From Chamaesiphon minutus PCC 6605 (GTDB lineage: Bacteria; Cyanobacteriota; Cyanobacteriia; Cyanobacteriales; Chamaesiphonaceae), in contig NC_019697.1 of assembly GCF_000317145.1 (NCBI RefSeq), positions 496,001 through 560,000 of the forward strand: a stretch of 64,000 nucleotides of DNA, written 5' to 3'. Shown here piece after piece: positions 18,640 through 43,919 of this stretch. The notes beneath the pieces were generated by a model that worked only from the letters and a program-made list of their open reading frames with translations, searched no databases and had not been told where the DNA came from. Position 1 is the stretch's first letter; every line of letters begins with the position of its first letter. A program made the translations under genes and the position numbers.

Positions 18640-18789
18640 CTAGTACTCAGTTTCAACCAGGGTATCCACAAGCGATGCGCGATCGTCGGGTTTCCCGACG
18701 GATTAGCGCATCAAGACAGGGGCACCCCTACACAATCGATCTGTAGGGGTGCCCCTTGTGGATACCCTTAGATCTATAATAAGCACTAG
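18640..18789. repeat. Palindromic element, copy a (long form)
   Basis: This fills most of the 310-base gap between the GNAT gene and ndhL. The outer arms are CTAGTACTCAG... and ...AAGCACTAG. The inner stem is GGGTATCCACAAG with CTTGTGGATACCC, and the core is AGGGGCACCCCTAC/GTAGGGGTGCCCCT around CACAATCGATCT. Between the first arm and the core lies an extra hairpin (GATGCGC...GCGCAT with CGTCGGG/CCCGACG inside). It belongs to the family with copies near 36.5, 40.5, 45.2 and 49.8 kb. Confidence 0.85.
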
Positions 18790-23886: not shown

Positions 23887-25536
23887 CTAGAGCCTTACTA
23901 ATGCTTGCTGATGCTGCATTCGCAAGGCAAGGATATGTTCGCAGGGGCCTTTAAATAGCTTATTTTGCTGGTGCCAATTACAGGTACAATTGGCGGCCAC
24001 CAATCGCTCATCGCGATCGATCTCGGCAATTGGCTTATATGTCTGCGATCGATATTTTATAGTTCCGGCTAGATGTAATGTCCCGTTAGTATCGACACTC
24101 GAACTATCGACTTTGACGACTTTATTCGTGATAAATTCGCTGGCGGCTGATTCGCGATCGTTGGCAAATCTCAATCGATCGATCGGCAATGGTTCTTGAG
24201 TTAATTCGCGGACGCGATAGACTTGTTTATTCAGATCGTAAATCGCTCGTCCGGCTTGAGTATAGGCACTCAAGGCACCTAAAACGACACTGCGATCGAG
24301 TTTCAATCTTTTAGCCAGATCGTCAGGCGATTCGAGCCAATTTTCTTGCAATCCGGCGAATACTTTTTGCTTCGTCCAATCATCGACAGTGTCGCGGGGA
24401 GCCATCAGATCGAAATTTCCGGCTTTTGCCCAGTCATTTGCCGTCCAGCCGGATAAACCCAGGGTGAAGGATAAATCGTGAAGATCGGCGACGTAAAAGG
24501 AGGGTAAACCCGTGCCTAATAAGTGAACGGTGAACTTCTTAGCGACGGGAATCAAGCGTTCTAAAATCAACAATCGGCGGCGTCCCCAAACGCGAATTTC
24601 TTCGGGTTTATTGCCGTGGTAGAAGGATCGATCGCAAACTACTTCGAGATTCCACGGCTCGAAAATGACGCGGACTGGTTCGCCCGGTTTGAGGATATAT
24701 TTCATGCTCCGAGGGCCATGTTTTTCCTTGCGGCGGCGGAGGACGAAGCAAAGATTGTAGATATCCATCGGATGGAGATCGAAGCTAATTGCGGGCAAGG
24801 ACATCGCTGAATTGACTTGCAAGAAGCCGCGTACCCACGTATCGGGTAAATCGATTTTCACCTCTTTATAAGCCACCTCGCCCGCAGTTTGAACGCCAAA
24901 ACCGGAGGGATCTACTTCAAAAACGGTGGATTTATAGGTGCGGATTTTTTGGAATTCGTCGTAAAGTGCGGCGGAATAATCGACATTTGTCGTCCCGCAC
25001 GCAAAGTCGCCGACGTTTTTAAAAACCTCATAGCTGGCACCGAGCCGCCCGTAGCTAGATTCATCTTGGCTGAAACACTCGAAGAATACTTCGTCGGGAT
25101 GGACGGTAATCACCGGATCGAGGACGAACCAAGCATCGCGATCTTTTTGGTACAGGTAGTCGAAATAGCGGCGCACGGATTTGTAGTATCCGCTCGATCG
25201 CTCGGAGCTACGACGGCGTAATTCGCTCATTTCGGCATCGAGTTCTCGCAGTCTGTCAGTCACGGTTTGCCGCTGGGTGGCGATGAGTTGCCAGTCGATC
25301 TCATTGCGTTGCGCTGCCCATTCTTTATAGGCGGTTTTATCTTTGGGCTGAAATCGCAAGTCGGAGACTACGACATCGTGCAGCGCGCTTATCGCTTCGC
25401 GGAAGGCGATATTTTGCCGCAGTTCGCCGCGAAAATAAGTCGGCGTGCGGGTGACATCGGGAGCGAAGGACATATTCGTGCGATCGCCATTGCTGGAGAT
25501 GCTACTGTTGCCGGGATAACTATAGTTAAATTCCAT
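23887..25536 (-). CDS. SWIM zinc-finger protein
   Basis: With the ATG at 25536 the protein is 549 residues and starts MEFNYSYPG; a frame open to 25566 adds ten unlikely residues. The C-terminus has a SWIM finger: CTCNWHQ, then CEHILALR (C-x-C-xn-C-x-H), preceded by a beta segment (YRSQTYKPIAEID). The remainder is a large domain of unknown fold with a coiled stretch (RLRELDAEMSELRRRSSER). SWIM fingers bind nucleic acid or protein. It is the last gene of a minus-strand run and has its own promoter whose -10 region is identical to that of the WGR/HEAT gene at 33.2-36.4 kb. In E. coli the SWIM protein YehQ is likewise linked to the WGR protein YehI. Confidence 0.8.
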   Translation of the reverse strand: MEFNYSYPGNSSISSNGDRTNMSFAPDVTRTPTYFRGELRQNIAFREAISALHDVVVSDLRFQPKDKTAYKEWAAQRNEIDWQLIATQRQTVTDRLRELDAEMSELRRRSSERSSGYYKSVRRYFDYLYQKDRDAWFVLDPVITVHPDEVFFECFSQDESSYGRLGASYEVFKNVGDFACGTTNVDYSAALYDEFQKIRTYKSTVFEVDPSGFGVQTAGEVAYKEVKIDLPDTWVRGFLQVNSAMSLPAISFDLHPMDIYNLCFVLRRRKEKHGPRSMKYILKPGEPVRVIFEPWNLEVVCDRSFYHGNKPEEIRVWGRRRLLILERLIPVAKKFTVHLLGTGLPSFYVADLHDLSFTLGLSGWTANDWAKAGNFDLMAPRDTVDDWTKQKVFAGLQENWLESPDDLAKRLKLDRSVVLGALSAYTQAGRAIYDLNKQVYRVRELTQEPLPIDRLRFANDRESAASEFITNKVVKVDSSSVDTNGTLHLAGTIKYRSQTYKPIAEIDRDERLVAANCTCNWHQQNKLFKGPCEHILALRMQHQQALVRL

Positions 25537-25573
25537 CGATCTAGTTACATGGGAAACACAACGCAAAGCTTAA

Positions 25574-25607
25574 ATACTATTGTACTATGCCATCTGCAAA
25601 TTGTCAG
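25574..25607 (-). promoter_or_regulatory. Promoter of the SWIM gene with shared operator-like -10 box
   Basis: Read on the minus strand: -35 CTGACA (25602-25607), a 17-base spacer, and -10 TACAAT (25579-25584) inside ATAGTACAATAGTAT (25574-25588). The start codon is 37 bases further. The same 15-mer with the same 17-base spacing lies upstream of the WGR gene. The box AGTACAATAGTA differs by one base from the cyanobacterial LexA consensus RGTACNNNDGTWCB as I remember it. Confidence 0.65.
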
Positions 25608-25649
25608 CTTGTATCGATCGCATTACGGATTATGAAACCTTGCCTATAT

Positions 25650-26384
25650 CTACTTCAGACGGAGTTCGATGCGATCGTTGAGATAGTTTTTCCGAGTATT
25701 CCAGTCTGGCAAAATGCTCTCTAATAGTTTGTAAAAACTAGCAGAATGATTGGGAAACCGGAGATGACAGAGTTCGTGAATTATCACATAGTCAATGCAA
25801 TCTTTTGGTGCGCTAACTAAGAGGGGGTTGAGGAATATTTTACCATTTGGGGTGCAGCTTCCCCAGCGTTTGGACATAATGCGAAGTTCAAAGCCAATTT
25901 TTTCTGGAATAATTCCATAAATAGCAACTAATTTGGTGCAGTATTGGTAACGTTCGCTAAATATTGTCATCGCTCGATCGCGAAACCAATTAGAAATGGA
26001 TCTTTCGACATGTTCTCTGTCAAATGGTGTGGGCGTATTAACTTCCAATCTACCTTGCCACAGCCGGATTTTTTCAACTGAACTTTCAATTAGTTTTAGC
26101 CGATATTGACGACCTAAATAGCGATAACCTTCGCCTGAGACGCATTCGGGGGCGGGTAAAGGTGGGGCATATTTGGTAAATTGGCGTTGTTGTTTGGCAA
26201 TCCAGGCGGCGCGATGAATGACTTTGGATTCGATCGATTGCAAGGTCTCATTGGTAGGAGCTTTGACAATAATACTACTATCTGGATGAACTTCGATCGC
26301 CAAGGTTTTGCGGGGGGAATATTCCAGGGCGAAGGTGATGTTTTGGCTTCCGTAGGGCACGCGATGGATCTCGGTTGATTTCAT
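25650..26384 (-). CDS. DUF45/YgjP-type zinc metallopeptidase linked to Type I R-M
   Basis: This 244-residue protein has a zincin motif HELCHLRFPNH (HExxH with a downstream His) and the MSKRWGSCTPNGKIFLNP segment typical of DUF45 (SprT/M48-like) proteins. It lies 62 bases downstream of hsdR in the same direction. DUF45 genes are very often the last gene of bacterial Type I restriction operons, so it is probably part of this system, perhaps proteolytic control of the restriction subunit. That function is inference; the domain call is firm. Confidence 0.88.
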   Translation of the reverse strand: MKSTEIHRVPYGSQNITFALEYSPRKTLAIEVHPDSSIIVKAPTNETLQSIESKVIHRAAWIAKQQRQFTKYAPPLPAPECVSGEGYRYLGRQYRLKLIESSVEKIRLWQGRLEVNTPTPFDREHVERSISNWFRDRAMTIFSERYQYCTKLVAIYGIIPEKIGFELRIMSKRWGSCTPNGKIFLNPLLVSAPKDCIDYVIIHELCHLRFPNHSASFYKLLESILPDWNTRKNYLNDRIELRLK

Positions 26385-26446
26385 ATCATCTAAATATTTT
26401 TTAACCGCAGAGGCTCAGAGAGCGCAGAGAAGAGAAGGAAGAGATG

Positions 26447-29400
26447 TTAGCTGACTTCATAGTTTTCGGCAATCTTGAGGATCTTGGCAATTAGTTCGTC
26501 TAAGTCTGCCCAGTGAATGAATAGATTGTGAGTCTTTTTTAAGTCGTGAACGAGATCGTCGATTTCGTTCATCATCCGGTTTTGGATATCTTTGTGATGT
26601 TGCCAATCGCGGACTTTGTGTTTGGTGATAATATCTTCGATACCGATCGATAGTAATACAAATACGTCTGAATGATTGATATTGCTGTCGATGCCGCCAT
26701 CGATTAAAATCGAGGCTGGTGCTGCAAAGTCCGCCTGCGCGGACTGGGTTGTATATGTGGACTTCACTTCACGAACAACGGAGCGAGCGGTATTGTAGTC
26801 CGCGTAGGCGGACTTCGCATCACGAGCAGAGACTTCAGTCTCTAGGCTCTCTGGGCTACTAGATAATTTAGCTTGCAAAACGTTGTAAAAAGCTCGCGCT
26901 TGGGGGCGAGTTTGCAATGGTAGGGGAACGGTATCCGCGCCACCACTGCGGACGGTTTCTAGACACGATCGCATTTGCTGGAGATATTCGATGTCACCGA
27001 GGCGTTTGGCGCGGTGGGCATCGATCGCGGTTTGAATTAATTGACTCAATCGCAGGTATAATACAGGGTCTTCTTCCATCCGTTCGATCGCGACTTTTTT
27101 GATTCTCGCGGCGATGGCATCGGCTTGGGCGGCTGTTCCTACAATACTTTCAATTTCGGCATTCGATCGATCCAGATCGAAAATATCTACAGGTTCGATA
27201 ATAGTCATAAATTCCGACGCGCCGATTTCTTTTTCTACCATTCGGCGAATTTGGTCGGTATATTCCGAATAGTCTACCTTTTCGCCGTACCTGACTTTAA
27301 CTAGATCCCGCAGCTTGAGCCAAGATTTGAGATCTTGGAGATAGCGGTGTTTGGTAGTTTCGGGAGTATCGGCTTGAAAGGGAGCATTACTGAGGGCGAG
27401 GCGGAGATTTTTGGCGAAATCGCGCAGGGCTGCATAAAATTCGTCCCGACGATCTTGGGGTTCGAGCCACTGCTGGAGGCTTTCGGTATCCTGAAGATTA
27501 GTCACGCCTTTAAATACATCCCACACCGCCGCGTGTAAAGTGGGCAATTTGGCAATTTCTACGCGCACGTCTACCAAGGCACCCTCAATATCCTCTCGAT
27601 CGAAGCCTTCTTGCTCCAAGGCGGCGTAGATTTCTAGGGCTTGGTTCATTTCGCCAAAAATGCCCCGATAGTCGATTACCAGCCCGTATTCTTTGCCCTC
27701 GAACACCCGATTTACTCGCGCGATCGCTTGTAATATATTATGTTCTTTGAGCCGTTTGTCGATATACAAAATCGCATTGCGCGGCGCGTCAAAGCCCGTC
27801 AGCAGTTTATCAACGACGATTAATAAATCTGGTGCATCGTCACCATCGCCATCTTTGAATTTTTCGATTAGCCTGTCTTGATAATTTTTCGGCGTGCCAT
27901 AAATTGCCATCATATCTTTCCAAAAGCGTTGGACTTCCGAAAGATCGGCTTCATTGACACTATCGTTATCTTCGCGAGTATCTGGGGGCGAAATAATTAC
28001 TGCCGATCGCACTTTACCCCAATCGTCGAGAAGTTTTTTATATGTAATTGCCGCGCGTTTGCTAGAGGTAGCGAATTGTCCTTTTAATTTCGTACCCTTG
28101 AAATGTTTGTCAAAATGTTGACTGAGATCGTAGGCAACTTCTCGCATTCTTGCATCGGCTTCATACAGCGGTTCGGCACTTTTGAACTTGCGTTTCAAGT
28201 CGGCTTTTTGTTCGGAATTTAAGTCAGATGTAATCCGATCGAACCATTTATCAACAGCTTCAGTATTTTTGAATTCACTTTCTCGCCCTTCATAAACGAT
28301 CGGCACTACTGCTTTATCCCCGACAGCTTTGGGCATAGTATAAGAGTGAATAAACCCGCCGAATTTCTGGGCGGTACTTTTATCCTTTTTGAGTAATGGC
28401 GTACCTGTGAAGCCGATATAACAGGCATGTGGGAACACATTTCGCATCTTGGCGTGAATTTGCCCGTATTGGGAGCGATGGGATTCATCTACTAGCACAA
28501 ATATATTCGGGCTGGGATTTTCACCCTTTTCTCTAGCGACAGTATCAAATTTATCGATGACGGTGGTAATAATTTCGGCTTTGGGGAGATTGAGTAATTC
28601 GAGTAGATTTTTACCACTTTGAGCTTGAGTCGGCGGCAGTTTACAATTGCCGAAAGTAATGGTAAGTTGATCGTCTAAATCGACTCGATCGTTAACTAGA
28701 ATAATCTTCGGATTGAGAATACTTGGTTCTCTAATTAATGCTTTAGCTAATAACACCATCGTCAACGACTTTCCGCTCCCCGTCGTGTGCCAAATTACGC
28801 CACCCTGACGCGACTTATCCCCGCGTACCTGCTTGACTCGATCGATCGTTGCTCTCACCGCAAAATACTGTTGATAACGGGCGATCTTTTTATCTCCAGC
28901 ATCAAATAAAATATAACCATGAATCAGAGCTAATAATCGTTGCGGTGCGAGTAAACTGTAGATTAATCGATCTTGAGCCGAAACTAATCTCTCACCCGCT
29001 GCCCAGAGTTCGCGAATTTTTACCTGCTCCCAAGTTTGCCGCCAGCTTAATAGTTTCTGACTTTGAGTTGCTGAAAGATCCACATTAATGAGGGCGTATA
29101 ATTCGGCTTCAAACTTATCTAATCCTCCCTCTTCTTTCCACACTGCCCAAAATTCTTTTGATGTGCCAGTAGTCGCATATTGGGCTGAGTTTTGAGCGAT
29201 CGCCATTAAGATTTGAGTAACACAAAAAAAGTGCGGAATCTCATCCGTACGCTGATTTCGTAAGTGTTGACTAATCGCTTCTTCAGTAGCTTTGGGCAGA
29301 TCTGGGCGTTTACATTCGATCGCCACCAACGGAATCCCATTCACAAATACCACAATATCAGGGCGACGAGTTTGGGTACTATTCAACCGCTCGACTTCAA

Positions 29401-29818
29401 ACTCATCGGTAACGTGATAGCTATTATTCGATGGATTTTCCCAGTCGATATATTTGAGTTGATGGCTTTTCTTATCGCCATCGATCGTTTGTTCGAGACT
29501 TTTTCCTAATACTAATAAATCGTAAATCTGTGCGCTAGTAGTGTAGAGAGCATCGTAAGGAAATTGACTAATAGCCGCGACAGCAGTTTGAATATTTGCA
29601 TCGCTAAATGGATGTATTTTACCAGATCGATCGATTTGATTGAGCTTATGAAGTTGAGCCGTCAGGATATCTTCAAGTACTACCTTCGATCGTTTCCCCT
29701 GACGATGTGCGAGTGCTTCGGCTGGCGTGATGTAGGTATACCCGATGTTTTGGATCAGGGCGAGGGCGGGGATTTGAGATGAGATGACTTCGCGTAGATC
29801 GATCGGGGATGGGGTCAT
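26447..29818 (-). CDS. hsdR: Type I restriction enzyme, R subunit
   Basis: This 1123-residue protein has an N-terminal PD-(D/E)xK nuclease (RRPDIVVFVNGIPLVAIECK, with D and ExK), an SF2 helicase/translocase core with Walker A HTTGSGKS, a DESH box (LVDESHRSQYG), motif III FTGTP and a later motif IARVNRVFEGK, and a helical C-terminal domain. With HsdM and HsdS it cuts unmethylated DNA after ATP-driven translocation. It is separated from hsdS by 370 bases of repeats, so it may be transcribed separately. An in-frame palindromic repeat occupies codons of about residues 1000-1032, without breaking the frame. Confidence 0.95.
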   Translation of the reverse strand: MTPSPIDLREVISSQIPALALIQNIGYTYITPAEALAHRQGKRSKVVLEDILTAQLHKLNQIDRSGKIHPFSDANIQTAVAAISQFPYDALYTTSAQIYDLLVLGKSLEQTIDGDKKSHQLKYIDWENPSNNSYHVTDEFEVERLNSTQTRRPDIVVFVNGIPLVAIECKRPDLPKATEEAISQHLRNQRTDEIPHFFCVTQILMAIAQNSAQYATTGTSKEFWAVWKEEGGLDKFEAELYALINVDLSATQSQKLLSWRQTWEQVKIRELWAAGERLVSAQDRLIYSLLAPQRLLALIHGYILFDAGDKKIARYQQYFAVRATIDRVKQVRGDKSRQGGVIWHTTGSGKSLTMVLLAKALIREPSILNPKIILVNDRVDLDDQLTITFGNCKLPPTQAQSGKNLLELLNLPKAEIITTVIDKFDTVAREKGENPSPNIFVLVDESHRSQYGQIHAKMRNVFPHACYIGFTGTPLLKKDKSTAQKFGGFIHSYTMPKAVGDKAVVPIVYEGRESEFKNTEAVDKWFDRITSDLNSEQKADLKRKFKSAEPLYEADARMREVAYDLSQHFDKHFKGTKLKGQFATSSKRAAITYKKLLDDWGKVRSAVIISPPDTREDNDSVNEADLSEVQRFWKDMMAIYGTPKNYQDRLIEKFKDGDGDDAPDLLIVVDKLLTGFDAPRNAILYIDKRLKEHNILQAIARVNRVFEGKEYGLVIDYRGIFGEMNQALEIYAALEQEGFDREDIEGALVDVRVEIAKLPTLHAAVWDVFKGVTNLQDTESLQQWLEPQDRRDEFYAALRDFAKNLRLALSNAPFQADTPETTKHRYLQDLKSWLKLRDLVKVRYGEKVDYSEYTDQIRRMVEKEIGASEFMTIIEPVDIFDLDRSNAEIESIVGTAAQADAIAARIKKVAIERMEEDPVLYLRLSQLIQTAIDAHRAKRLGDIEYLQQMRSCLETVRSGGADTVPLPLQTRPQARAFYNVLQAKLSSSPESLETEVSARDAKSAYADYNTARSVVREVKSTYTTQSAQADFAAPASILIDGGIDSNINHSDVFVLLSIGIEDIITKHKVRDWQHHKDIQNRMMNEIDDLVHDLKKTHNLFIHWADLDELIAKILKIAENYEVS
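26724..26845. repeat. Palindromic repeat inserted in frame inside hsdR
   Basis: The arms GCAAAGTCCGCCTGCGCGGA (from 26724) and AGTCCGCGTAGGCGGACTTC (from 26797) are inverted copies, and a small GAGACTTCAGTCTC hairpin lies beyond. The same GTCCGCCTACGCGGAC palindrome occurs in the intergenic region at 42060-42117. In hsdR it encodes a Ser/Ala/Thr-rich linker-like stretch near residues 1000-1032. This resembles protein-coding palindromic elements known from Rickettsia. Confidence 0.7.
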
Positions 29819-29883
29819 AATAATTTCGTAGGGTGTGTTATCGCGGAGCGTAACGCACCTGCTCCACCATAAATTAAGTTTAC

Positions 29884-30188
29884 GGTAGGTTGGGTTGAAG
29901 AATGAAACCCAACATCTCTAGGGTGTTTGTGCGTTCGTTGGGTTTCGCTATCGCTCTACCCAACCTACAATGTTTCTATTGTAAAGATCCGTAGGGGCGG
30001 GTTTATGCTAGTAAATATCGCTAAATTCTAGAAATACCAAACGAACCCGCCCAACCCCACCAGCAACGCCCAGATCGTTTTCTATCATCAGATCGAAACA
30101 TGCGTCGGTTATTGGTGGGGAGGGCGGGTTCGATCGATCGTTATCGTTACATTCGGTATTCCTAGCATAAACCCGCCCCTACAGATCC
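29884..30188. repeat. Two inverted-repeat elements between hsdS and hsdR
   Basis: This is most of the 370-base gap. The first element is GTAGGTTGGGT (29885) with ACCCAACCTAC (29958), enclosing GAAACCCAAC-type repeats common in cyanobacteria. The second spans 29986-30187: 26-base arms GATCCGTAGGGGCGGGTTTA... and ...TAAACCCGCCCCTACAGATC enclose a second inverted pair (GAACCCGCCC / GGGCGGGTTC). The latter has the look of a MITE and ends two bases from the hsdS stop codon. No gene is visible. Confidence 0.8.
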
Positions 30189-31403
30189 TTAAATCATTTC
30201 AACCCTAATCTTACCTGTCAATAACTGTTGCATCAATCCTAGTTTCTGTTGCTTGTAAGCAGCCAGTTGTTTTTCTAGCGTTGATATTTCCTCATCGGCG
30301 GCAGAGAGTACAGCAGCAATCTTTTCCTGTTCTGGAATTGATGGTAATTTTACGGCGAACTGTCTAATAAAATCACTAGGAACTCGTTGCTGTCCACCAG
30401 ATCCTTGCATCATGGTTTTACCACGCATTCCAAAATTATAAGTTCGAGTTAAATAATATAAATAAATTGGGATAATTTCCATCTTTGCTCTAAGTACGAA
30501 AAATTCTGTGCTTCCAAATCCTATACCTCGCAAACCTTCAATAAATGCACCCTTTCCATTTTCAAAACATGGGGTGATTTTTGCAACAAGAGTATCGCCA
30601 TTAATAAATGCTGTATATCCACTTGTAGAAGTATCTAAATTTATGCTAGCGATATTCTTTAAATGTCCAGACTCAGAAACGCTTGCCATTTCCACAAACT
30701 CACCCACGAATTGAAGATTATTAGGATGGCTTCTGGGATTAATATCTGCAATCTTTTCAAGTGATACTTTCTTCCACTCGCTACCTTCAAACTCCTTAAA
30801 ACGTTTCTTCCCAGTCAACAACTGCTGCATCAGCCCCTGCTTGCGCGATCGAACCCTCCCAATCAACTTCTCCAGCAGATCGATCGACTCATCCCAAACC
30901 CCAAGTATCTCCGCAATCCTACACTGTTCTAAAAGCGGCGGTAAAACGATTGGAAAATCATTTATTTGCTGAGTACTTATATGTGGTATTGCCGTTTCTG
31001 TTTGAACACTTTTCACATATTGCTCAAATCTATGGCTCATTACCAAGTAGGGCAGAAACTTCTGCTCTAGTCCTTTATTAGCTCTTAACCGTGCAACTCG
31101 CTGTACGAGTAAAGCGGGTACATCTTCCTCTCGAATAATTGCAATCTTGAGTCCATTACTTACTAATACACGATCCATCGCGATTATAAGATCTTGAGGA
31201 TTTAGATAATACTTGTTCAGTCCTTCTACATTATTTAATGACCAATGTTTAGCACCATCCCATCTTGTAGAACCTGGAATAATATTATCTCCACGTAGCA
31301 ACCGAATAGATTGCTCAGATTCAGTATACAGTTCACTTTTGAATGGATAGCCAGTAATTATATCTACGTGATTGCCAAGAGTTGTTTTTAGCCAACCTTT
31401 CAT
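30189..31403 (-). CDS. hsdS: Type I restriction enzyme, specificity (S) subunit
   Basis: This 404-residue protein has the two-repeat design of HsdS. TRD1 starts WLKTTLGNHVDIITGYPFKS and ends before a coiled spacer (LIGRVRSRKQGLMQQLLTG). TRD2 starts WKKVSLEKIADINPRSHP and ends in a second coiled spacer (LAAYKQQKLGLMQQLLTG). The two spacers share the KxGLMQQLLTGK repeat. Each TRD reads half of a bipartite DNA target. Its start overlaps the hsdM stop by 4 bases, indicating translational coupling. The recognition sequence cannot be predicted. Confidence 0.94.
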   Translation of the reverse strand: MKGWLKTTLGNHVDIITGYPFKSELYTESEQSIRLLRGDNIIPGSTRWDGAKHWSLNNVEGLNKYYLNPQDLIIAMDRVLVSNGLKIAIIREEDVPALLVQRVARLRANKGLEQKFLPYLVMSHRFEQYVKSVQTETAIPHISTQQINDFPIVLPPLLEQCRIAEILGVWDESIDLLEKLIGRVRSRKQGLMQQLLTGKKRFKEFEGSEWKKVSLEKIADINPRSHPNNLQFVGEFVEMASVSESGHLKNIASINLDTSTSGYTAFINGDTLVAKITPCFENGKGAFIEGLRGIGFGSTEFFVLRAKMEIIPIYLYYLTRTYNFGMRGKTMMQGSGGQQRVPSDFIRQFAVKLPSIPEQEKIAAVLSAADEEISTLEKQLAAYKQQKLGLMQQLLTGKIRVEMI

Positions 31404-32920
31404 AAGCCCAACTCCTCCAAATACCCAACCATCCGAAACTTAACCTTAGATAACTCCTCCTCCAAACCATCGATCTCCGCCTGAACTGCCCCAATATCGA
31501 TCTCCGCCTCCTCCTCAAAAGTATCCACATACCTGGGAATATTCAGATTAAAATCATTCTCCTGAATCTCATCAAACCCCGCCAAATAAGCATACTTCTC
31601 GATCGTTTCTCGCTGCGTGTATGCCGCCACAATTTTGACGATATCTGCCGCCCTGAGATTGTTCTGGGTTTTCACATCCGCAAAATCCCGACTGCCATCG
31701 ATAAATAGCACCTTATTGTCTGGTTTATTCCGCTTAAATACCAACACCGCCGCCGGAATTCCCGTACCGAAAAACAGATTACTCGGTAAACCAATTACCG
31801 CATCTAACAGATTTTCGGCGATTAATTGTTGGCGAATCTTCCCCTCACTACTGCCCCGAAATAACACCCCGTGGGGCACCACTACCGCCACTCTACCGCG
31901 CTCTAGGCTCATGGTTTCGACGATGTGGGAGATAAAGGCAAAATCCCCCTTACCCTTGGGGGGAATGCCCCGATTGAAGCGTTTGAACCTGTCGGAAGCT
32001 ACATCATCCGCGCCCCATTTATCCAGACTAAACGGCGGATTGGCTACCACCACTTCAAACCGCATTAACTTATCATTTTCCAACAGCTTGGGATTGCGAA
32101 TCGTATCGCCCCACTCTACCCGCGCACTATCTACCCCATGTAGAAACATATTCATCTTGGCTAAAGCCCAAGTACCGCCCGTATTCTCCTGCCCAAACAG
32201 GCTATAGTTATCACTCCCCTGACGGCGCACATAGTTGGCACATTTAATCAACAGCGAACCCGAACCGCAAGTAGGATCGCAAATTCGCTCTCCTGGCTGA
32301 GGTGCGACGAGTTCCGCCATTAGTTCCGATACTTCCCCAGGCGTGTAAAATTCCCCCGCTTTCTTGCCTGCTCCAGCGGCGAATTTGGCAATCAAGTATT
32401 CGTAAGCATTGCCAATCACATCCAGATTACCGATACGGGATGGGCGCAAATCTAGTTTCGGATTGGCGAAATCTTCCAGCAGCATCTTCAAGCGGGTATT
32501 CCGCTCCCGCGTCTGCCCTAAATTCGCCTCGCTATTAAAATCAATATTCCGAAACACCCCCGCCAGCTTGAGTTTATTGGCTTCCTCAATCTGCTCTAAT
32601 GCCTTATTAATTACCTCGCCGAGGTTGGTATCATTCCGTTTGGTATAAATATCATCAAACCGACAATCGGGGGGCAATACAAACCGCTCCCGCTCCAATC
32701 GCCGCAGAATCCGCTCCTTATCATCGCCATACTGCTCTTGCAATTGCGCGTAATGTTCCGTCCATGAGTCGCTGACGTATTTGACGAACAACATCACCAG
32801 CAGATAGTTTTTGTACTCGCTAGCATCGATCGTACCTCTGAAGGTGTCGCAAGCGCGCCAGAGGATATTATTAATCTCGTCTTGATTGACAGGGAGGAAG
32901 GGGATAGTAGTTTTGTCCAT
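31400..32920 (-). CDS. hsdM: Type I restriction enzyme, DNA methyltransferase (M) subunit
   Basis: This 506-residue N6-adenine methyltransferase has an N-terminal helical HsdM_N domain (residues 1-150), SAM motif ICDPTCGSGSLLIKC and catalytic motif ANPPFSLDKWG (NPPF). It is the first gene of the hsdM-hsdS pair and overlaps hsdS by 4 bases. The 265 bases upstream (32921-33185) hold its promoter and a CCCTCCTCGGAGGGGCAGGG repeat just after the WGR gene stop. Confidence 0.96.
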   Translation of the reverse strand: MDKTTIPFLPVNQDEINNILWRACDTFRGTIDASEYKNYLLVMLFVKYVSDSWTEHYAQLQEQYGDDKERILRRLERERFVLPPDCRFDDIYTKRNDTNLGEVINKALEQIEEANKLKLAGVFRNIDFNSEANLGQTRERNTRLKMLLEDFANPKLDLRPSRIGNLDVIGNAYEYLIAKFAAGAGKKAGEFYTPGEVSELMAELVAPQPGERICDPTCGSGSLLIKCANYVRRQGSDNYSLFGQENTGGTWALAKMNMFLHGVDSARVEWGDTIRNPKLLENDKLMRFEVVVANPPFSLDKWGADDVASDRFKRFNRGIPPKGKGDFAFISHIVETMSLERGRVAVVVPHGVLFRGSSEGKIRQQLIAENLLDAVIGLPSNLFFGTGIPAAVLVFKRNKPDNKVLFIDGSRDFADVKTQNNLRAADIVKIVAAYTQRETIEKYAYLAGFDEIQENDFNLNIPRYVDTFEEEAEIDIGAVQAEIDGLEEELSKVKFRMVGYLEELGL

Positions 32921-33185
32921 TCAGAATCCATGCTGGCATTTTTAGCATTCTCCCACATCCCACTGTCGGCATCAGGATTTTGAGGATGTAAGGATGGACA
33001 GGATGAGGTGGTTTGTGGGTAGCATCATCTTAATATTAATATCCTTTGTATCCTAAGTAAGTAGGTGCAAATATTTATTAAATAGATAATGCCTGAAACC
33101 TTAGAGATCGATTTTATCTTTTCCATCTAATTTACTCAGGAGACGTTAAGGTAATTCCCCTCCTCGGAGGGGCAGGGGTGGGTTT

Positions 33186-36100
33186 CTAAGTTTTCATAGG
33201 TACTTGTTTAACCAAAATCGGCACCGATAATTGCGGATATAATTGATGAATTTTTAGCAAAGTTTCTAACGCACGAGCCTTTTCGCCGATCGCGATCGAG
33301 GCTGATTGTCTGGTTAATAATTCAATTACTACTTGAGCCGCAGCTTCACTTTTAATTGCTTCGCTATTGAGGAAGGCAAAGATCCGTTGTTTGGCGACGC
33401 GAGCGCGGTTGACTTGGGCGAGGACGCGAGTAAAATAAGGCGTCAATTCTTGCAGTCTGTCGAGGTTTCCCGCTGCATAGTCTTCGAGATATTGACTGGC
33501 GAATAGCTGCATATCGGTAGTGGGATGTTCGCTAAATTTGAGCAGATATTCTAAGCCATCTTGTTGTTGAAAACAGCTCCCGACTAGATCGCGTCCGAAT
33601 TTCCGCACGTCTTCACGATTGCTATCGCAAATACTAATTACTACTGAGGGGCTAAGTTCGGCGGGGGTGAGCAGTTCGCCAAATAGCTTGAAGCCAAATT
33701 GACGGGAGTCTTCCCATTTGGATGCCATGACTACGGTAGCAGCGAGTAAGTCCGCAGGTTGTTGGCGCAAGCGCGGTAAGATTTGCTCTAACATTTGCCA
33801 GCCAGCGACGCGAATTGCCAGAATTTCATGATGGGTGAGTTCGGCAATTTTTTCGGTAGCTAATGTATCTGCCCAGCGGGTACTATTGACTTGTAAAATC
33901 TTACCTGCGAGATCTTGGCTGGCAGTAGCAGCAGATTTAAGCAACGTCCAGGTAATTTCAGCACTGGTAACTGCCATCCAATTTGGTAAGTCATTTTGCA
34001 ATAGTTGCGAGATGAACGTATGCAATCCTTCGTGTGCTTCGGGTGCTAATAAGATCGGAATTAATCGATCGAGTAAAGTAGTGGTAAAATCTGGGTGCGC
34101 TGCGGCAATTCGCTGGATACTGGCACGAATTGCCGATCGCATTTCGGGGAGTTCGTGAGTGACTAATGTTAAAATTAGTTCGATTCGTTCTATTAAAAGT
34201 TCATCTGGTAATTGTCCGAATAATTGGACGCCAATGACGCGGACTGAAGCAACTGGCGATTCTAATAAAGCATCGATTAAACCGGGCGGTAGATCGATCG
34301 TTTGCGTCTGATGATTGAGTAAGATTTGCGCGCCACAAGTTTGTAAAACTGGGAGCGGATGACGGAGTAAATCGAGGACGATTTCTAAACCGATCGCTCT
34401 TAAGGCGACACTAAAACAAGTAATTAATGTTTGAGTGGCATGTTCGGCAATATGCGATCGCGTCGTATCTAAAGTTAATAATTCAGCAATAATGCGTCCG
34501 ATTATCGTCCGTGCGGTATCCGCTGGGAAAATCGTATTGCATAATAATTGTTGAATAAATAACTGTGTATCTACTTCGGGACTGATAATTAAACCTGCAA
34601 TTAAACGATCGTCAGTAATAAATCGATCGATCTGGGTGCGAATCCAATTATGTGCTTCGCTCCGAGCGGGTGCGTAAGCACAATTAGCGATCGCGAGAAT
34701 CAGATCGGTTTGGGGATTGTCGGGTTGATAGCGAGAGCGCGCTAATTCAAAGCCAAATTGAGCGGTAACTTCGTAAGGTTTGGCTAACAGTTGCATCAAG
34801 ATCTCGATCGAGATGCCTTGGCAAAATTCGGCACAAGTTCTAATTGCTTTGATGGCAAATTCATGAACTGGCTGGCACTGACTCTCTGATAATAGTTGGA
34901 GTAGTAAATGCGGTTGTTGCTCCCATAATTCTGGAAACGCTTCTTCCCGAACATTCGGAGCCGGATCGCCGATTTTATATGTAGACTTACACCGCCAGAC
35001 ATCATTCGATGGCGGCAATTCATAGCGCGGACTATTAGTATAGAGAATGTGATTGAATGCTAAATAAGCTGCATATTTATCCCAGCTAATGCGGCGATTG
35101 CGACGTTCGGTGTGGTGCCAATAATTTGATTCGCGAATGGGAGTGGCATCGAGATCGCTATATTGCAAGAGGATATGTACCGCTAGCGGTACATATTCCG
35201 ATCGATTTAATTCGCCCAAAGTTTTGAGCGATCGCCAGACTCGCCGCCGCAAATAATCGCGAGTTTTATGACTATAAGCCAATCGACAATTCGACTTAGC
35301 CATTTCTGCTTGGAATTCACCCGTTGGTGTTGACTCATATTGGCCTGTTTTGGGATTGCGTACCCAATTTTGCATCCGTAAGTATTCACTAGTATTAGGG
35401 ATGTAAATACCGTAAGTATTACTATTATAAAATGCGGGAGTTCGATCGAGTCGATAAACCAGGATGCCAAATACTTCGGCGTCGTGGCGATATTCAGCAA
35501 TCTTGAAAATGTGCCGCAACCGCTGAAAATAATTGGGCTGGAAGGGTGCGTGTCGCACTATCTCTAGAACAGCAGGGCGAGTATGTTCGCTATCAATCTG
35601 ATATAGCAAATCTAGTACGTCAAATTGAGGCGGCGTAGCGGTGGCAAGATAAGTTTGTAAAGCCTCGATAATAGTGGCTGTGGCTGCACCTTGCCGCACT
35701 AACTCGCGCAACGGCTTGGGTAATTTGACGATTAGTTCGTCGCGCAATGCCCCCGCACCTTCTGGATTGAGCTTGAATAAAGCTTCGAGCGCAATTCGGC
35801 GGATATGAGCTGGCGTGTCGGCTTGACGGTAAATCGCGTCTAACATCGGCACCGCGCTGGCATCGCCGCAATTTCCCAATGCCCAAGCGATACTATAATT
35901 CGTCAGCGGATTGTTGCCCCATAATTGCATCAGTAAAGGCGTCGCTGCGGCTAATTGTAACTCTCCCGATCGCCAAATCGCCCGATCGATTTTCCATTCC
36001 TTCGGTTTGGTGATGGCATTGCGGTTATTTACCGCCAACATCAATCTGGCTAACACCGCTCGGTTGCGTTCATCTGGTTCGTCGATGTTCGCAGGTACGG

Positions 36101-36374
36101 CAACACTCGCTGCAACCGCTTCAGGTGCCACCGTACCCGCCTCGCGATAGCCTTTAGTTACTTTCGATCGAATTAGTCGATCGAACACCCGTTGCGCCTC
36201 ATTTAGCGGGACTGCGGTTACTGTTTCTGCCCCTTCGCGCAGATTGCCCCCGCGTCTACCATAGCGATAATTTACCATGTAGCGATCGGGTGCTACTTGA
36301 CACAGATCGACTTCATAGACTTTATCCGAACTACCTGCTTGATAGACGAGGGTGGTGCGTTGAATGAGTTGCAT
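33186..36374 (-). CDS. WGR-domain protein with HEAT-like repeats
   Basis: The start was chosen at the ATG at 36374 (MQLIQRTTLVYQAGSSDKVY), because the 44 residues before it in the open frame are not protein-like. The product has about 1062 residues. Residues 1-85 form a WGR domain (SSDKVYEVDLCQ, YMVNYRYGRRGGNLREG), a DNA-binding module known from PARPs and MolR/YehI. The rest is long alpha-helical HEAT-like repeats (ALGNCGDASAVPMLDAIY, IRRIALEALFKLNPEGA). Its promoter shares an identical 15-bp -10 region with the SWIM gene. A role in DNA damage response or conflict is plausible but unproven. A complete Type I R-M operon separates the two genes. Confidence 0.82.
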   Translation of the reverse strand: MQLIQRTTLVYQAGSSDKVYEVDLCQVAPDRYMVNYRYGRRGGNLREGAETVTAVPLNEAQRVFDRLIRSKVTKGYREAGTVAPEAVAASVAVPANIDEPDERNRAVLARLMLAVNNRNAITKPKEWKIDRAIWRSGELQLAAATPLLMQLWGNNPLTNYSIAWALGNCGDASAVPMLDAIYRQADTPAHIRRIALEALFKLNPEGAGALRDELIVKLPKPLRELVRQGAATATIIEALQTYLATATPPQFDVLDLLYQIDSEHTRPAVLEIVRHAPFQPNYFQRLRHIFKIAEYRHDAEVFGILVYRLDRTPAFYNSNTYGIYIPNTSEYLRMQNWVRNPKTGQYESTPTGEFQAEMAKSNCRLAYSHKTRDYLRRRVWRSLKTLGELNRSEYVPLAVHILLQYSDLDATPIRESNYWHHTERRNRRISWDKYAAYLAFNHILYTNSPRYELPPSNDVWRCKSTYKIGDPAPNVREEAFPELWEQQPHLLLQLLSESQCQPVHEFAIKAIRTCAEFCQGISIEILMQLLAKPYEVTAQFGFELARSRYQPDNPQTDLILAIANCAYAPARSEAHNWIRTQIDRFITDDRLIAGLIISPEVDTQLFIQQLLCNTIFPADTARTIIGRIIAELLTLDTTRSHIAEHATQTLITCFSVALRAIGLEIVLDLLRHPLPVLQTCGAQILLNHQTQTIDLPPGLIDALLESPVASVRVIGVQLFGQLPDELLIERIELILTLVTHELPEMRSAIRASIQRIAAAHPDFTTTLLDRLIPILLAPEAHEGLHTFISQLLQNDLPNWMAVTSAEITWTLLKSAATASQDLAGKILQVNSTRWADTLATEKIAELTHHEILAIRVAGWQMLEQILPRLRQQPADLLAATVVMASKWEDSRQFGFKLFGELLTPAELSPSVVISICDSNREDVRKFGRDLVGSCFQQQDGLEYLLKFSEHPTTDMQLFASQYLEDYAAGNLDRLQELTPYFTRVLAQVNRARVAKQRIFAFLNSEAIKSEAAAQVVIELLTRQSASIAIGEKARALETLLKIHQLYPQLSVPILVKQVPMKT

Positions 36375-36397
36375 AGACGATCGGTAACAAATTCTCG

Positions 36398-36431
36398 ATA
36401 CTATTGTACTATACGATCGATCCAGTGACAA
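36398..36431 (-). promoter_or_regulatory. Promoter of the WGR/HEAT gene with shared operator-like -10 box
   Basis: Minus strand: -35 TTGTCA (36426-36431), a 17-base spacer, and -10 TACAAT (36403-36408) inside ATAGTACAATAGTAT (36398-36412). The start codon follows after 23 bases. The 15-mer and spacing match the SWIM gene promoter at 25574-25607. Confidence 0.65.
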
Positions 36432-36474: not shown

Positions 36475-36627
36475 CTAGTGCTTAGTAGAGATAGTCGGGT
36501 ACCCACAAGCGGCGTTTTTATTCGGGGGGAACCCCCGAATAAAAAAACGACAAGACAGGGGCACCCCTACGCAATTAATCTGTAGGGGTGCCCCTTGTGG
36601 GTACCCTGGGTCTACACTAAGCACTAG
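36475..36627. repeat. Palindromic element, copy b (long form)
   Basis: Outer arms CTAGTGCTTAG... / ...CTAAGCACTAG, inner GGGTACCCACAAG / CTTGTGGGTACCC, core AGGGGCACCCCTAC/GTAGGGGTGCCCCT. As in copy a, an extra hairpin sits between the first arm and the core, but its sequence is different (TTTTTATTCGGGGG / CCCCCGAATAAAAA). It occupies most of the 318-base gap between the WGR gene and the AAA-WD40 gene. Confidence 0.85.
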
Positions 36628-36692: not shown

Positions 36693-39600
36693 TTACGGAT
36701 TGCAGATAGAATCGATCGAGACGGAATTGCGATCGCGTTGAGTGCGAATGCCAGCGAGATACTCCTGCAAACGCTCGCAGCCCTTGGCATAAGAAGCATC
36801 GAGGCTCAGATATACCCGTTCTAACCTCGCCAAATTCCAGAATCTCATCACGCCATTTTTATCCACCGCGACGAAAGTTTTACCATCGGGGCTAAATGCC
36901 AGACTTAAAGCATTAAAACTCTCAATCGTGCGCCGCAATTCGCCCTTGCGACTCCAGAATTTAATCGTCCCCCCGCCACTGGTGGCAATTTCCTGTGAGT
37001 CAGGGCTAAATTGAACGTCATCGCTAGCAGCTTGATGAGCTTGGTATTTAGCTAAAGATTTACCATCTGGAATGCTCCACCAGCGGAATAGTCCATCCAC
37101 GCCTGAAGCCGCAATTGTTTTGCTATCGGGACTGAAACTAATTTTTAGTAAGCTTTGCATTTTTTGGCGATTATTATCGTCTAATGTCCGAACTTTGGTA
37201 AAGTCGCTGGTGCGATAGAGTTCGACGCCATTAGTACTATTTGCAGCTAAATAACGACCATCGGGACTGAAGGTGACTTTCCAAATCCAATGATCGTTAT
37301 TTGTAATTTTAATTTCTGTAACTAGTTTCCCATCGCGCACATCCCAGATTTTAATTTTTTCATCATTACCGACAGAAGCTAAATAACGCTTATCAGGACT
37401 AAAGCTGACATCGAGGGCAAAATCATTATGCTTTAAAGTGCGAACCAGTTTACCATCTGCGACTTGCCAGATCTTAATTGTATTATCTTCACTCGCTGAA
37501 GCGATCGAGCGATCGTCGGGACTAAAACTCAGGCCATATACCCAATCTTTATGACCGCTAATAGTTCGGAATAATCGACCATCTGCCGTCCAGATTCTAA
37601 TTTGCTTGTCCGAGCCAGCGGTAGCTAGATATTTTCCGTTATTACTATAAGTTACCCTTTTGATGCTTAAATCGCTAGCACTAACATTACGTTCTAATGC
37701 ACGATCGGGTTCCCAAATAATTACCTGAGAATCTGTTGCTGCTAGTGCGATCCGTCGCCCGTCAGGACTATAGCTGATACTTTTATATTCTGTTTGGTTC
37801 GAGCTAATGTGAGCGAGTAAGATATTCCCCCAATCATTAGCATTAATTGTCGATCGAGAATAGGCTAAAATGCGATCGAAGTCCCAGATTTTCAGAGTTC
37901 CTCCAGCGGTTGCTAATTCTCTGTTATTGGGATTAAAAGCTACATAAAAGCCTTCTTCATGGATCTTTTCGAGCGTTTTATATAACTTAAATTCACCAGC
38001 TTTAATTTGCCAAATTTTTAAGCTTTTGTCGCTACCACCGCCACTGGATACCAACCATTTACCATCTTGTCGAAACGAGAGCGAATACGCCCAATCTTGA
38101 TGACCAGTAAGAATTTGCGGACTCTTGCTAGTTTGCCATGCCCACACTTTAATCGTTGTGTCAGTACTGGCAGCAGCGAGAAACTTACCATCGACACTAA
38201 ATTTCAGATCCCGAAAACTGTGAGTGCGATCGCCTACTTCTCCAGGAGTTTTAGGAAATGCTAACACTTTCATAATCTTGCCACTCTTCACTTCCCAAAT
38301 GACAATTTCGGCATTTTGAGAATCGGTATTAGTTGCCGCCGCAATATACTTCGCATCTTGCGTAATTGCCACGCGCAAAAACTTGTCCCGTCGCTCGTAT
38401 GGTGCCAATGTTGGGGTAACTTGTTTGCCTTCAATATTCCAAATTCTTACTCGATTATCATCACCTACCGTTACGATCTTTTTACTGTCGGTACTAATAG
38501 CGAGATCTTTTAAAGATTGGGAATGGGGAATCACGATAATTTCTTTACCATCTGGTTGCCAAATCTTCAGCGATCGATCTTTACTAACTGATGCAATAAA
38601 TTTACCATCAGAGCTATAGTTAACCCCTGTAACGGTATTTTGATGCGTGAGACGGTTGCGTTCGAGCGTACCGTAGAGAGAGTATTGAAGATTGGTTTCG
38701 GTTTCTGGCTGTAACTGCCGATCCGGATCGTTTAGTAATAATTTGGCGGCTTCTAAAGTCCCAATTAAAGTTTCGAGAGTATGCTTGGAATTATCTGATT
38801 TAATTAATGCTTGATTGAGGGCATTTTTAGCCGTAATTGTAGCAATCTGGGCTTTCTCTTTTTCTCGCCGCGCTTCGGCACCTAGATACAAAGCACTGAA
38901 GGCAAATAAGATGGCAATTCCCGACAGCAACCACAGTTGTTTGATACGTTGCTGAAGCACTTCTTGATTGGCTTCATAAATGCGCTGTTCGCGACAAGTA
39001 CTGAGAAACTGACTATCGATATTACTTAAATTTTTGCCTTTAGACCAAGTTAGTGCGTCTTCCAAGGCTTTACCTCGAAGCAATCGAGAATTATCTTGCT
39101 TGTTCGATTCGAGCCACTCCTTAACAGCCGTACCATACGGACGGAAGCTGGCGAGCTGTTTATCTACCCACGATCGATTAAATATCTCGGCATAAATTGG
39201 ATTGGCAACTCGCAATCGATCGCCAAATTTAACCGTAATTCCCGATAATTGTAACTCGCGTTCTTCGGGGAGATTATCGATCGAGATCGATCGGTCGGTT
39301 AAAATCTGGCGATACAGCCCTAATAAGCTACTCGATCGAGTTTCACTAGCAGTCAATCGTGCCGCGATCGTTTTAAAATGTGGCGGATTATCTTTACTTT
39401 CCCAGTCTTCTAATATCTCCGCTTGCACTAGTTTTTTAATAACAGCAACTGCATCATTCGATCGCACGAATAGATTACTTTGCGTGAGTAAATAGCACAA
39501 CTTTTGAGTCAAAAATGGTTGCCCGCCCGTCCATTCTAAAATATTTGCTAGCGTCGCTTGCGGGTTGTCCGTTAGCTCCATCAATCCGATCGCGAGTGGG

Positions 39601-40346: not shown

Positions 40347-40483
40347 AACATAGCCAAATCGAGAACAGACCCCTTATATATTGAGTTTTAATTGAGTTTT
40401 AATTGACTTAATATCGAGAAATTACTAGAATTACTAGATGTAAGTAATGCCAATGACTCACATCTTGCAGCATTATCTAAAGA

Positions 40484-40547
40484 CGAGTGCCTAATGTAGA
40501 TCTGAGGGTATCCCCAAGGGGCACCCAAGTTCTACACTAAGCACTAA
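40484..40547. repeat. Palindromic element, copy c (short, decayed form)
   Basis: Arms GAGTGCCTAATGTAGATCT... and ...TTCTACACTAAGCACTA survive, but only half of the core (GGGTATCCCCAAGGGGCACCC) remains. It lies in the divergent gap between the two AAA-like genes. The preceding CTCACATCTTGCAGCATTAT matches the left flank of copy b, so the full element may start further left. Confidence 0.7.
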
Positions 40548-40619
40548 GACATTTAAATTATCTCGACACACCCCCGAACCCCAGCTTCACAGCCGCATAA
40601 TACGTTCCTGGAGAGATCG

Positions 40620-42005: not shown

Positions 42006-42031
42006 TGTAACATCAGTTGCTTCGATCGGCG

Positions 42032-42142
42032 CAGCCAACGACTGGAAGTCGTGGCTGGTGTTGCGAAGTCCGCCTACGCGGACTAGTTAATCAGTCCGCG
42101 TAGGCGGACTTCGCAACACTAGCAGCGGTTTCTAACCGCTGA
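42032..42142. repeat. Three successive hairpins after the HTH-AAA gene
   Basis: AGCCAACGACT/AGTCGTGGCT forms the first (42032-42056). A 25-bp perfect stem follows, GTTGCGAAGTCCGCCTACGC.../complement (42060-42084 and 42093-42117). Then comes AGCGGTTTCTAACCGCT (about 42122-42138). The middle one is the same palindrome found inside hsdR. The 301-base gap contains no gene. Confidence 0.85.
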
Positions 42143-42306
42143 GGTTATCCGTAGCCACTAGCGTTAATACAATTTCCTAGTTTCGCAATCTTGCAGCGAT
42201 CGAAACTAAATAACAACTAAATAGTAGCAAAAACATCTGTTTGCGGAATTCAGTGTTGTGGATTGTTTAATAATCTCATACCCACTCACTCACACCGATC
42301 GCCGTC

Positions 42307-42741: not shown

Positions 42742-42755
42742 GGGGTAGAGGGTAG

Positions 42756-42856
42756 GGGGTAGGCTTTAGGCTTTGGGCTTTGGGCTTTAGGCTTTAGCTT
42801 TAGGCTTTAGGCTTTAGGCTTTAGGCTTTAGGCTTTAAGCTTTAGGCTTTAGGGGA
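42756..42856. repeat. Period-7 array (TTTAGGC)n
   Basis: About 13 units of TTTAGGC/TTTGGGC follow degenerate GGGTAGA units, between the TPR-like gene and the LRR gene. The same unit occurs in the opposite orientation on the other side of the LRR gene. Confidence 0.9.
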
Positions 42857-42969
42857 TTTTGGATAAACGATCCCATCCACCCATCCTACGGTGGTACAGT
42901 CCACCCATCTACCCATCCCCCCGCAAGTTGGCAGTATGTAGCCCATCGAAACATCGATTATTAACAACA

Positions 42970-43832: not shown

Positions 43833-43919
43833 GCCTAAAACCTAAAACCTAAAACCTAAAGCCCAAAACCTAAAGCCTAAAACCTAAAGCCTAAAGCCTA
43901 AAACCTAAAGCCTAAAGCA
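43833..43919. repeat. Period-7 array (CCTAAAR)n
   Basis: About 12 units of CCTAAAA/CCTAAAG follow the LRR gene. It is the reverse-complement family of the array at 42756-42856. Confidence 0.9.

Follow-up and report, generated by a model that had tools for sequence, protein, structure and literature searches.

The SWIM zinc-finger gene and the WGR/HEAT-repeat gene that flank a Type I restriction-modification (R-M) operon in Chamaesiphon minutus PCC 6605 probably belong to a dispersed type XIII retron, the other parts of which lie elsewhere on the chromosome and would act in trans, the R-M operon having later split the two effector genes. Both proteins match named families over their full length (PADLOC SWIM_XIII and WGR_XIII) and, judged from these matches, are the effector half of a kind of immune element that is already known. 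The "XIII" of RT_XIII, SWIM_XIII and WGR_XIII is taken here to mean retron type XIII; the scheme of types is reportedly that of Mestre et al. 2020. In a preliminary description, the pair was regarded as a possibly undescribed two-protein system; membership of named retron families speaks against the first part of this claim, and the presence of a reverse transcriptase (RT) and a non-coding RNA elsewhere in the same genome against the second. The features concerned, within the window of 64 kb (the whole stretch of DNA that was analysed), are the following.

23887..25536, minus strand: SWIM zinc-finger protein (PADLOC SWIM_XIII, 796 bits; CxC...CxH), 549 aa
25574..25588, minus strand: LexA-like box with the same sequence as that of WGR, covering the -10 in the promoter of the detached SWIM gene (exact 15-mer match, matrix score)
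25579..25607, minus strand: sigma70-like SWIM promoter, CTGACA-17-TACAAT (promoter scan)
25650..26384, minus strand: YgjP-like metallopeptidase gene, part of the inserted island (PF01863, 184 bits)
26447..29818, minus strand: HsdR of the inserted Type I R-M operon (TIGR00348, 495 bits)
30189..31403, minus strand: HsdS of the operon (family matches)
31400..32920, minus strand: HsdM of the operon (family matches)
33186..36374, minus strand: WGR and HEAT-repeat protein (PADLOC WGR_XIII, 1144 bits over full length; WGR, HEAT_2), 1062 aa, first gene of the effector pair
36398..36412, minus strand: LexA-like box covering the -10 in the promoter of WGR (exact 15-mer match, matrix score)
36403..36431, minus strand: sigma70-like WGR promoter, TTGTCA-17-TACAAT (promoter scan)

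The genes between SWIM and WGR/HEAT are, as originally reported, HsdR, HsdS, HsdM and a YgjP-like protease, and the R-M trio is complete by family profile matches. WGR lies on the same strand and at most 2 kb upstream of SWIM at 62 of the 80 best-matching loci, which upholds the view of the two genes as one conserved unit; in relatives they mostly form a single tandem pair, whereas here they are split by the R-M operon. Because the gap between WGR and SWIM is 143, 71 and 496 bases in three Chamaesiphon relatives, the operon does look like an insertion, as had been proposed. The SWIM gene most likely starts at the ATG at 25536, giving 549 aa, rather than at the TTG at 25566, because the latter is only 8 bases from the box; the ATG start is kept in three relatives.

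Domain and fold searches found no known toxin or nuclease domain in either protein. The AF2 model of the WGR/HEAT protein (pLDDT 88) consists of N-terminal strands followed by a long helical solenoid, and a fold search with WGR against the PDB was set aside, the matches listed being large solenoid proteins only. The model of the SWIM protein, the confident part of which spans about residues 250-360, suggests a PCNA-like clamp domain: all 50 PDB matches listed are clamp chains, although overall confidence in the model is low (mean pLDDT 59.7), and Foldseek aligns part of it to clamps with an E-value of 4e-6 and a probability of 1.00. No sequence similarity was found between the SWIM protein and solved clamps.

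The RT on the same chromosome matches RT_XIII with 644 bits (next-best model, 331), contains the signature motifs NAxxH, YADD and VTG, and has the RT of retron Ec86 as its best PDB matches. The RT-RNA unit is 5.17 Mb away in contig coordinates, or 1.12 Mb away if the contig is circular. The RNA adjoining the RT folds with a z-score of -6.7, and compensatory changes occur at 28 of 45 consensus pairs in an alignment of 24 rows, so that, by its conserved structure, it is the putative msr-msd RNA of the type XIII retron. The ends of the RNA pair as closing arms in the copy of this genome, a pairing that is absent from the consensus fold. Rfam gave four matches at the RT locus, all under the cut-off and none to a retron family. 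Elsewhere in the genome is a second copy of the RNA without an RT. Encoding of all parts at one locus is absent here and likewise in other genomes; the arrangement is therefore treated as a variant and not as grounds for exclusion.

In this genome, a LexA-like box precedes each of WGR, SWIM and the RNA-RT unit, and LexA probably links the parts of the retron in this lineage. A LexA protein is encoded in the genome, with a single match to PF01726 (89 bits), its DNA-binding domain. As claimed earlier, the SWIM and WGR promoters are sigma70-like with 17-base spacers (10 of 12 consensus bases each), and the identical 15-mer ATAGTACAATAGTAT covers the -10 in both; its 2 matches in the 6.76 Mb assembly are both in the window, and the reversed control has 0. 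The promoter hexamers alone are weak evidence, because the scan found one site in each promoter against 0.8 and 0.2 in shuffles. The 15-mer is indeed one base off the cyanobacterial LexA consensus RGTACNNNDGTWCB as quoted in the available passages of PMC3091678. Mismatches to this consensus number 0 for the RNA-RT box, 1 each for WGR, SWIM and recA, and 2 for lexA. In a matrix built from 27 distinct putative LexA sites of the same paper, the WGR and SWIM boxes score 12.9 and 15.5 and are the only sites in the 64 kb window that reach at least 12.8 (0.5 expected). The RT locus contains no match to the inner 13 bases of the 15-mer, even with up to 3 mismatches, because the box of the RNA-RT unit is another variant; 2 of the 17 distinct places of AGTACNNNDGTWC in the genome are directly before retron RNAs.

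It is also conceivable, if rather unlikely, that the element is a type XIII retron in which the 15-mer is merely a good -10 region or the site of another regulator. The overlap of the box with TACAAT in both promoters would agree with this, as would the 18 matches of the quoted consensus genome-wide against 27 in the reversed control, that is, no enrichment, and the weak box at the lexA gene of this genome, which scores 5.6 (recA, 9.6) in the promoter comparison proposed at the outset. In MO_167.B51, boxes stand at all three retron parts, yet recA scores 2.4 and the three lexA-like genes -1.6, 0.2 and about 9.2, the gene with the last value being split in its alignment; these values lowered confidence in the dispersed retron very slightly. 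The box is absent from both RT/ncRNA and WGR in 45-51 of 66 systems, depending on the threshold, and LexA control of every type XIII retron was dropped because most systems are without it. Against another regulator, however, stand a site of the same type, AGTATAATAGTAC, over the -10 of recA in this genome, near-perfect palindromes (AGTACATATGTACT) before the RT in other genera, and matrix scores above 8.53 before 13 of 17 lexA and 12 of 19 recA genes. Moreover, a column-reversed matrix gives far fewer hits of at least 9 than the true one (WGR, 2 versus 16; RT, 3 versus 15).

In 11 of the 66 systems, the RT and WGR are each preceded by a box, which is consistent with control by LexA in a subset of these retrons; boxes at the two places are associated (11/3/1/51; p between 4e-9 and 1e-5 for the six pairs of thresholds). 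Where SWIM is away from WGR (12 systems), boxes are found at both genes in 4 and at neither in 8. The box upstream of WGR is kept in all three Chamaesiphon relatives, once with C as first base, and no such box precedes SWIM in them; the 15-mer was accordingly dropped as a general feature of SWIM. Of the earlier suggestion that the two genes are co-regulated and perhaps induced by damage, a LexA-type switch is plausible, but SWIM in the relatives has no box of its own.

Despite their dispersal, the parts of the retron co-occur and co-evolve. In a sample of 292 genomes from the phylum, the set of 10 with a near-full WGR_XIII coincides with the set that has an RT_XIII of at least 570 bits, the RT being unlinked in 5 of them; RTs scoring 463-545 bits with RT_XIII occur in five genomes without WGR. 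Distances of the RT correlate with those of WGR at r 0.95 (17 genomes; partial Mantel, 0.92), whereas r is 0.59 for recA and 0.45 for lexA. In 30 systems the RT is away from the SWIM locus; this locus holds the RNA in 20 of them, 19 times no more than 400 bases behind the SWIM gene. Together these results make it improbable that WGR-SWIM is an independent DNA-protection system with which a retron RT is only optionally associated. Such independence would suit the lack of linkage in this genome, the presence of the RT at another place in 29 of the 32 genomes searched that have none at the SWIM locus, and the absence of any RT_XIII from the other three (G340, G343 and G322), which, however, may be incomplete assemblies. 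In a search with RVT_1 over the genomes of 48 relatives, matches to group II intron RTs predominated, and its only use was to show that G322 has no match. Four of the 30 split systems have no recognisable RNA. It is likewise improbable that the scattering and the R-M insertion reflect a retron falling apart, although an in-frame stop at codon 240 of the C. polymorphus SWIM gene (draft assembly) and a short transposase ORF close to the RNA copy without an RT might indicate this. The reading frames of the RT and of the genes in the window are uninterrupted and full length, with intact signature motifs; the detached SWIM gene keeps a promoter with the same box; and dispersal is seen in many genomes, with sequences that are strongly conserved (SWIM identity 64-94% over 29 rows).

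For the dispersed retron, we infer that it serves in immunity, that its parts act in trans and that LexA controls them. SWIM and WGR/HEAT would form the protein effector module, with the RT, the msr-msd RNA and the second RNA copy acting in trans; the R-M operon would have parted the effector genes later, and SWIM now has its own promoter with the same box. LexA would keep the scattered promoters repressed, and all of them would be induced together by DNA damage or by an attacking phage. The RT would make msDNA, and the two may dock together on WGR/HEAT as a scaffold and on the clamp-like SWIM protein, giving a complex that could monitor abnormal DNA ends or replication forks and, once triggered, would block replication or growth, as other retrons do.

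Retrons are usually described as compact cassettes encoded in cis. It is tentatively suggested that cyanobacterial type XIII retrons might be natural trans-acting immune networks, in which the RT, the RNA, a WGR scaffold and a clamp-fold SWIM protein, although often dispersed over the chromosome, are co-inherited and which in several branches of the RT tree may belong to the LexA/SOS regulon, DNA damage arming all parts at once. The RNA in such networks would sometimes be present in several or orphan copies. If the RT is commonly in trans to the RNA or effectors, annotation based on neighbourhood misses type XIII retrons or labels their parts as solo genes, and recognition between RNA and RT must be specific enough at a distance. 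SOS control, if it holds, would couple retron immunity to DNA damage, and a clamp-like fold in the effector, if correct, would point to the replication fork as the thing sensed or attacked. Among the literature matches listed, no paper concerned the biology of type XIII retrons, and the term XIII is absent from the main text of PMC8934634, PMC12548924 and PMC8867640.

Compared with the cyanobacterial LexA/SOS regulon, the retron boxes fit the consensus with 0 or 1 mismatch and sit on the -10 as that of recA does here, whereas the retron genes are not among the members named in the available passages of PMC3091678. The SWIM protein resembles PCNA and beta sliding clamps in the fold predicted for one part of it, with a TM-score of about 0.5 to the target and an rmsd mostly of 12-14 A, and the clamp-like part is joined to a SWIM zinc finger. 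The RT is homologous to those of retrons with solved structures (Ec86, Ec67, Ec78, Ec83 and Eco8; 1e-51 for Ec86), from which the present element differs in effectors in which no known toxin or nuclease domain was found. With retron type XIII it shares all three protein families at full length and a conserved structured RNA; here, however, the parts occupy at least three unlinked places, an R-M operon lies between the effector genes, a second copy of the RNA is present without an RT, and LexA-like boxes stand before each unit.

The WGR/HEAT and SWIM zinc-finger genes of Chamaesiphon minutus can be read as parts of a dispersed type XIII retron, the reverse transcriptase (RT) and RNA of which lie elsewhere on the chromosome. 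Over their full lengths, the SWIM protein matches the PADLOC family SWIM_XIII (796 bits) and the WGR/HEAT protein matches WGR_XIII (1144 bits); these entries carry no description, and we take the suffix XIII to denote retron type XIII. Pfam gives WGR (6e-5) and HEAT_2 for the latter and a weak SWIM match under the cut-off (E 0.0014) for the former. In PMC11953036, "retron type XIII" is given as a PADLOC call. The two promoters with an identical 15-mer (AGTACAATAGTAT) and the Type I R-M genes of the preliminary description match the sequence, and a genome search finds exactly 2 copies of the 15-mer. The features are as follows (C1, chromosome of C. minutus, G000).

Window 25536: ATG, best start of the SWIM gene, 549 aa
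Window 36374: ATG, best start of the WGR gene, 1062 aa
Window 36693-42005: two extra genes, one WD40/AAA_35 and one HTH/AAA_35, lying between those for WGR and the M50 protease
Window 43918-45163: M50 protease gene
Window 18671-18768, 36556-36609, 45205-45266 and 49776-49841: short dispersed repeat of the GTAGGGGTGCCC type, about 50-65 bases
G000:C1:5697483-5698898: type XIII RT, 471 aa
C1:5955282-5955495 (L219:7282-7495): second RNA copy
G000:C1:1841428-1842708: further defence-type RT, Drt2-like, 515 bits
G000:C1:752529-754427: further defence-type RT, AbiA-like, 127 bits

The model of the WGR/HEAT protein is good (pLDDT 88), and joins a WGR domain to a long HEAT solenoid; its fold search gave no enzyme domain, the 50 PDB matches listed being large solenoid proteins. 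That of the SWIM protein is poor overall (59.7), with residues about 250-360 fairly confident and predicted to form beta-alpha-beta-beta-beta two times. The 50 PDB matches listed for it are without exception clamp (PCNA) chains, at E 4e-6 to 4e-5 and, for most of them, with a TM to target near 0.5 and an rmsd of 12-14 A; the top matches in another library are viral PCNA, DnaN and unnamed models. A sequence search against solved clamps gave no match. The predicted fold makes a clamp-like domain likely; a hint of a winged helix between it and the zinc finger was seen in 1 of 29 relatives.

In the window, nhmmer with the RNA alignment found no retron RNA, and none of the 16 RVT_1 matches of the genome lies there. 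One of the 16, the type XIII RT at C1:5697483-5698898, scores 644 bits with RT_XIII and is homologous to the RT located behind WGR-SWIM in many relatives. The closest named relatives are Chamaesiphon; the C. polymorphus RT is 96% identical. A structured RNA (fold z -6.7) lies directly upstream. A core pattern picked out RNAs of this kind in many loci, and 24 of these were then aligned, giving 45 consensus pairs, 28 of them with compensatory change. With this alignment, nhmmer (221 sequences, 2.13 Mb) found the RNA in 50 of 51 loci with the RT in the locus or not located elsewhere, the single miss being a Chamaesiphon relative (L018) whose sequence stops 213 bases past SWIM, and at the SWIM or RT locus in 26 of 30 systems with the RT elsewhere, these RT loci being searched with 1.5 kb flanks only. 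Within 250 kb of the second RNA copy in C. minutus there is no RVT_1 match; this copy is divergent from a dGTPase gene and is followed by a short DUF4096 transposase ORF. Because the search covered 221 sequences (2.13 Mb), further copies may exist in the genome. At least two RNA matches per locus occur in L043 (four), L042, L046, L055, L059, L064, L073, L093, L094 and L102, which suggests that RNA copies multiply or diverge.

A SWIM scan of genome contigs confirmed 241 relatives, the best 80 of which were analysed. The adjacency proposed earlier for WGR and SWIM was borne out: WGR lies within 2 kb upstream on the same strand in 62 loci, and 2-10 kb upstream in 4; in 3 loci, all of Pseudanabaena, the two genes are on opposite strands. 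WGR is missing from 11 (3 with <5 kb of upstream DNA), and all 11 genomes carry WGR_XIII elsewhere. The RT lies 0.3-7.5 kb behind SWIM in 47 loci; 32 genomes of the other 33 loci were searched, and RT_XIII was found elsewhere in 29 and not found in 3 (the positive control, L025, is outside this count). The full 10 kb downstream of SWIM is present in 16 of the 29, so that the missing RT cannot be put down there to the contig stopping behind SWIM; several of the remaining systems are near contig ends, and their split may be only apparent. In Moorena bouillonii and ESFC-1, the three genes occupy separate places on one large, apparently single, contig. Of the 30 split systems, one of them C. minutus, 20 carry the RNA in the SWIM locus rather than at the RT (starting <400 bases from SWIM in 19), 6 carry it with the RT, C. 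minutus included, and 4 (L048, L067, L076, L082) show it at neither locus. Calothrix parasitica has a second WGR copy (33-37% identical) and a second RNA upstream of its main system (L047:2124-6087). In the SWIM gene of C. polymorphus (L019:10001-11617), codon 240 is an in-frame stop; as the assembly is a low-coverage draft, this is either an error or the mark of a pseudogene.

In an unbiased count over 292 genomes, sampled evenly across the phylum, WGR_XIII (1e-20) matches 11, namely ten near-full (three in pieces) and one partial (G169, 89 bits), and RT_XIII (1e-60) matches 32. RT_XIII reaches at least 570 bits, a line set once the scores were known, in exactly the ten genomes with near-full WGR_XIII. 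Five genomes without a WGR match score 545, 536, 535, 518 and 463 bits, G169 scores 485, a second RT copy in one of the ten scores 538, and remaining matches are <290. The RT is near WGR in 5 of the ten and distant or on another contig in 5 (G000, G129, G172, G213, G008). WGR and RT protein distances correlate at 0.94 (69 systems) and at 0.93 in the 29 with the RT elsewhere. Across 17 of 19 genomes (two had no recA or lexA match), correlations are 0.95 for RT-WGR, 0.86 for RT-SWIM, 0.59 for RT-recA and 0.45 for RT-lexA, and a partial Mantel test of RT-WGR, controlling for recA and lexA, gives 0.92 (p 0.0002).

The R-M genes cannot fit between WGR and SWIM in the Chamaesiphon relatives L018, L019 and L020, because the gaps there are so short (143, 71 and 496 bases), which suggests that these genes were inserted in C. 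minutus. Most GTAGGGGTGCCC-type repeats match the L018 gap. The gene upstream of WGR in L018 matches the M50 protease gene; window genes 36693-43791 were therefore added in C. minutus or lost in L018. L019 and L020 lack such a match. In all three relatives the box precedes WGR only. The SWIM promoter of C. minutus, similar by eye to the L018 WGR promoter, was either copied from WGR or newly arisen.

Several results count against the box being a LexA site. Consensus matches are not enriched genome-wide (18 versus 27 control matches), and most type XIII systems have no box (45-51 of 66 have neither an RT nor a WGR box), so that the box expected upstream of homologues holds for WGR in the three relatives but not generally. 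Of the promoters suggested for comparison, recA of C. minutus carries a similar site, AGTATAATAGTAC, over its -10, but lexA scores just 5.6; in MO_167.B51, recA (2.4) and two of three lexA-like genes have no box. A LexA site is favoured by the recA site, by the sites at both RNAs and by co-occurrence at RT and WGR. The RNA-RT unit has an exact consensus match, AGTACGTGAGTAC, about 13 bases ahead of the RNA match, and another of the 17 distinct consensus places genome-wide, the perfect LexA-type palindrome AGTACTTGAGTACT, lies about 8 bases ahead of the second RNA and is common to it and the dGTPase gene.

The matrix derives from 27 distinct putative sites found by footprinting, as given in part of PMC3091678. 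In 1180 ORF upstream windows of the same loci, retron genes included, its 95%/99% limits are 8.53/12.86. With it, 16 WGR, 6 SWIM and 15 RT upstreams score at least 9, versus 2, 1 and 3 with the column-reversed matrix (700 bases scanned for RT, 350 for others; a few overlapping loci counted twice). Scores exceed 8.53 before 13 of 17 lexA and 12 of 19 recA genes. In 66 systems with both upstreams (15 of 81 left out for short sequence or no RT), boxes occur at RT (>12) and WGR in 11, WGR only in 3, RT only in 1 and neither in 51 (p 4e-9); with RT >8.53, the counts are 11, 3, 7 and 45 (p 7e-6). Six threshold pairs gave p 4e-9 to 1e-5, in tests that ignore kinship. On the RT tree (72 rows) the box must have changed 5 times, by gain or by loss, and well-supported branches force 3 or more of these changes. 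In 12 systems SWIM and WGR stand apart, in C. minutus with the R-M genes between them; of these, SWIM has a box in the same four as WGR: C. minutus, MO_167.B51, ESFC-1 and SBLK (RT score just 7.1); another, L051, offers 115 bases before SWIM. The many systems without a box and the mixed recA and lexA results indicate that LexA-like boxes are a trait of some lineages.

In the dispersed type XIII retron, the RT would make msDNA from either RNA, WGR and the clamp-like SWIM protein would form a sensor-effector, and LexA would keep expression of the units low until the DNA is damaged or phages attack. We infer the sensing and output; the first half of this scheme follows from family membership, and the WGR domain binds DNA ends in other proteins.
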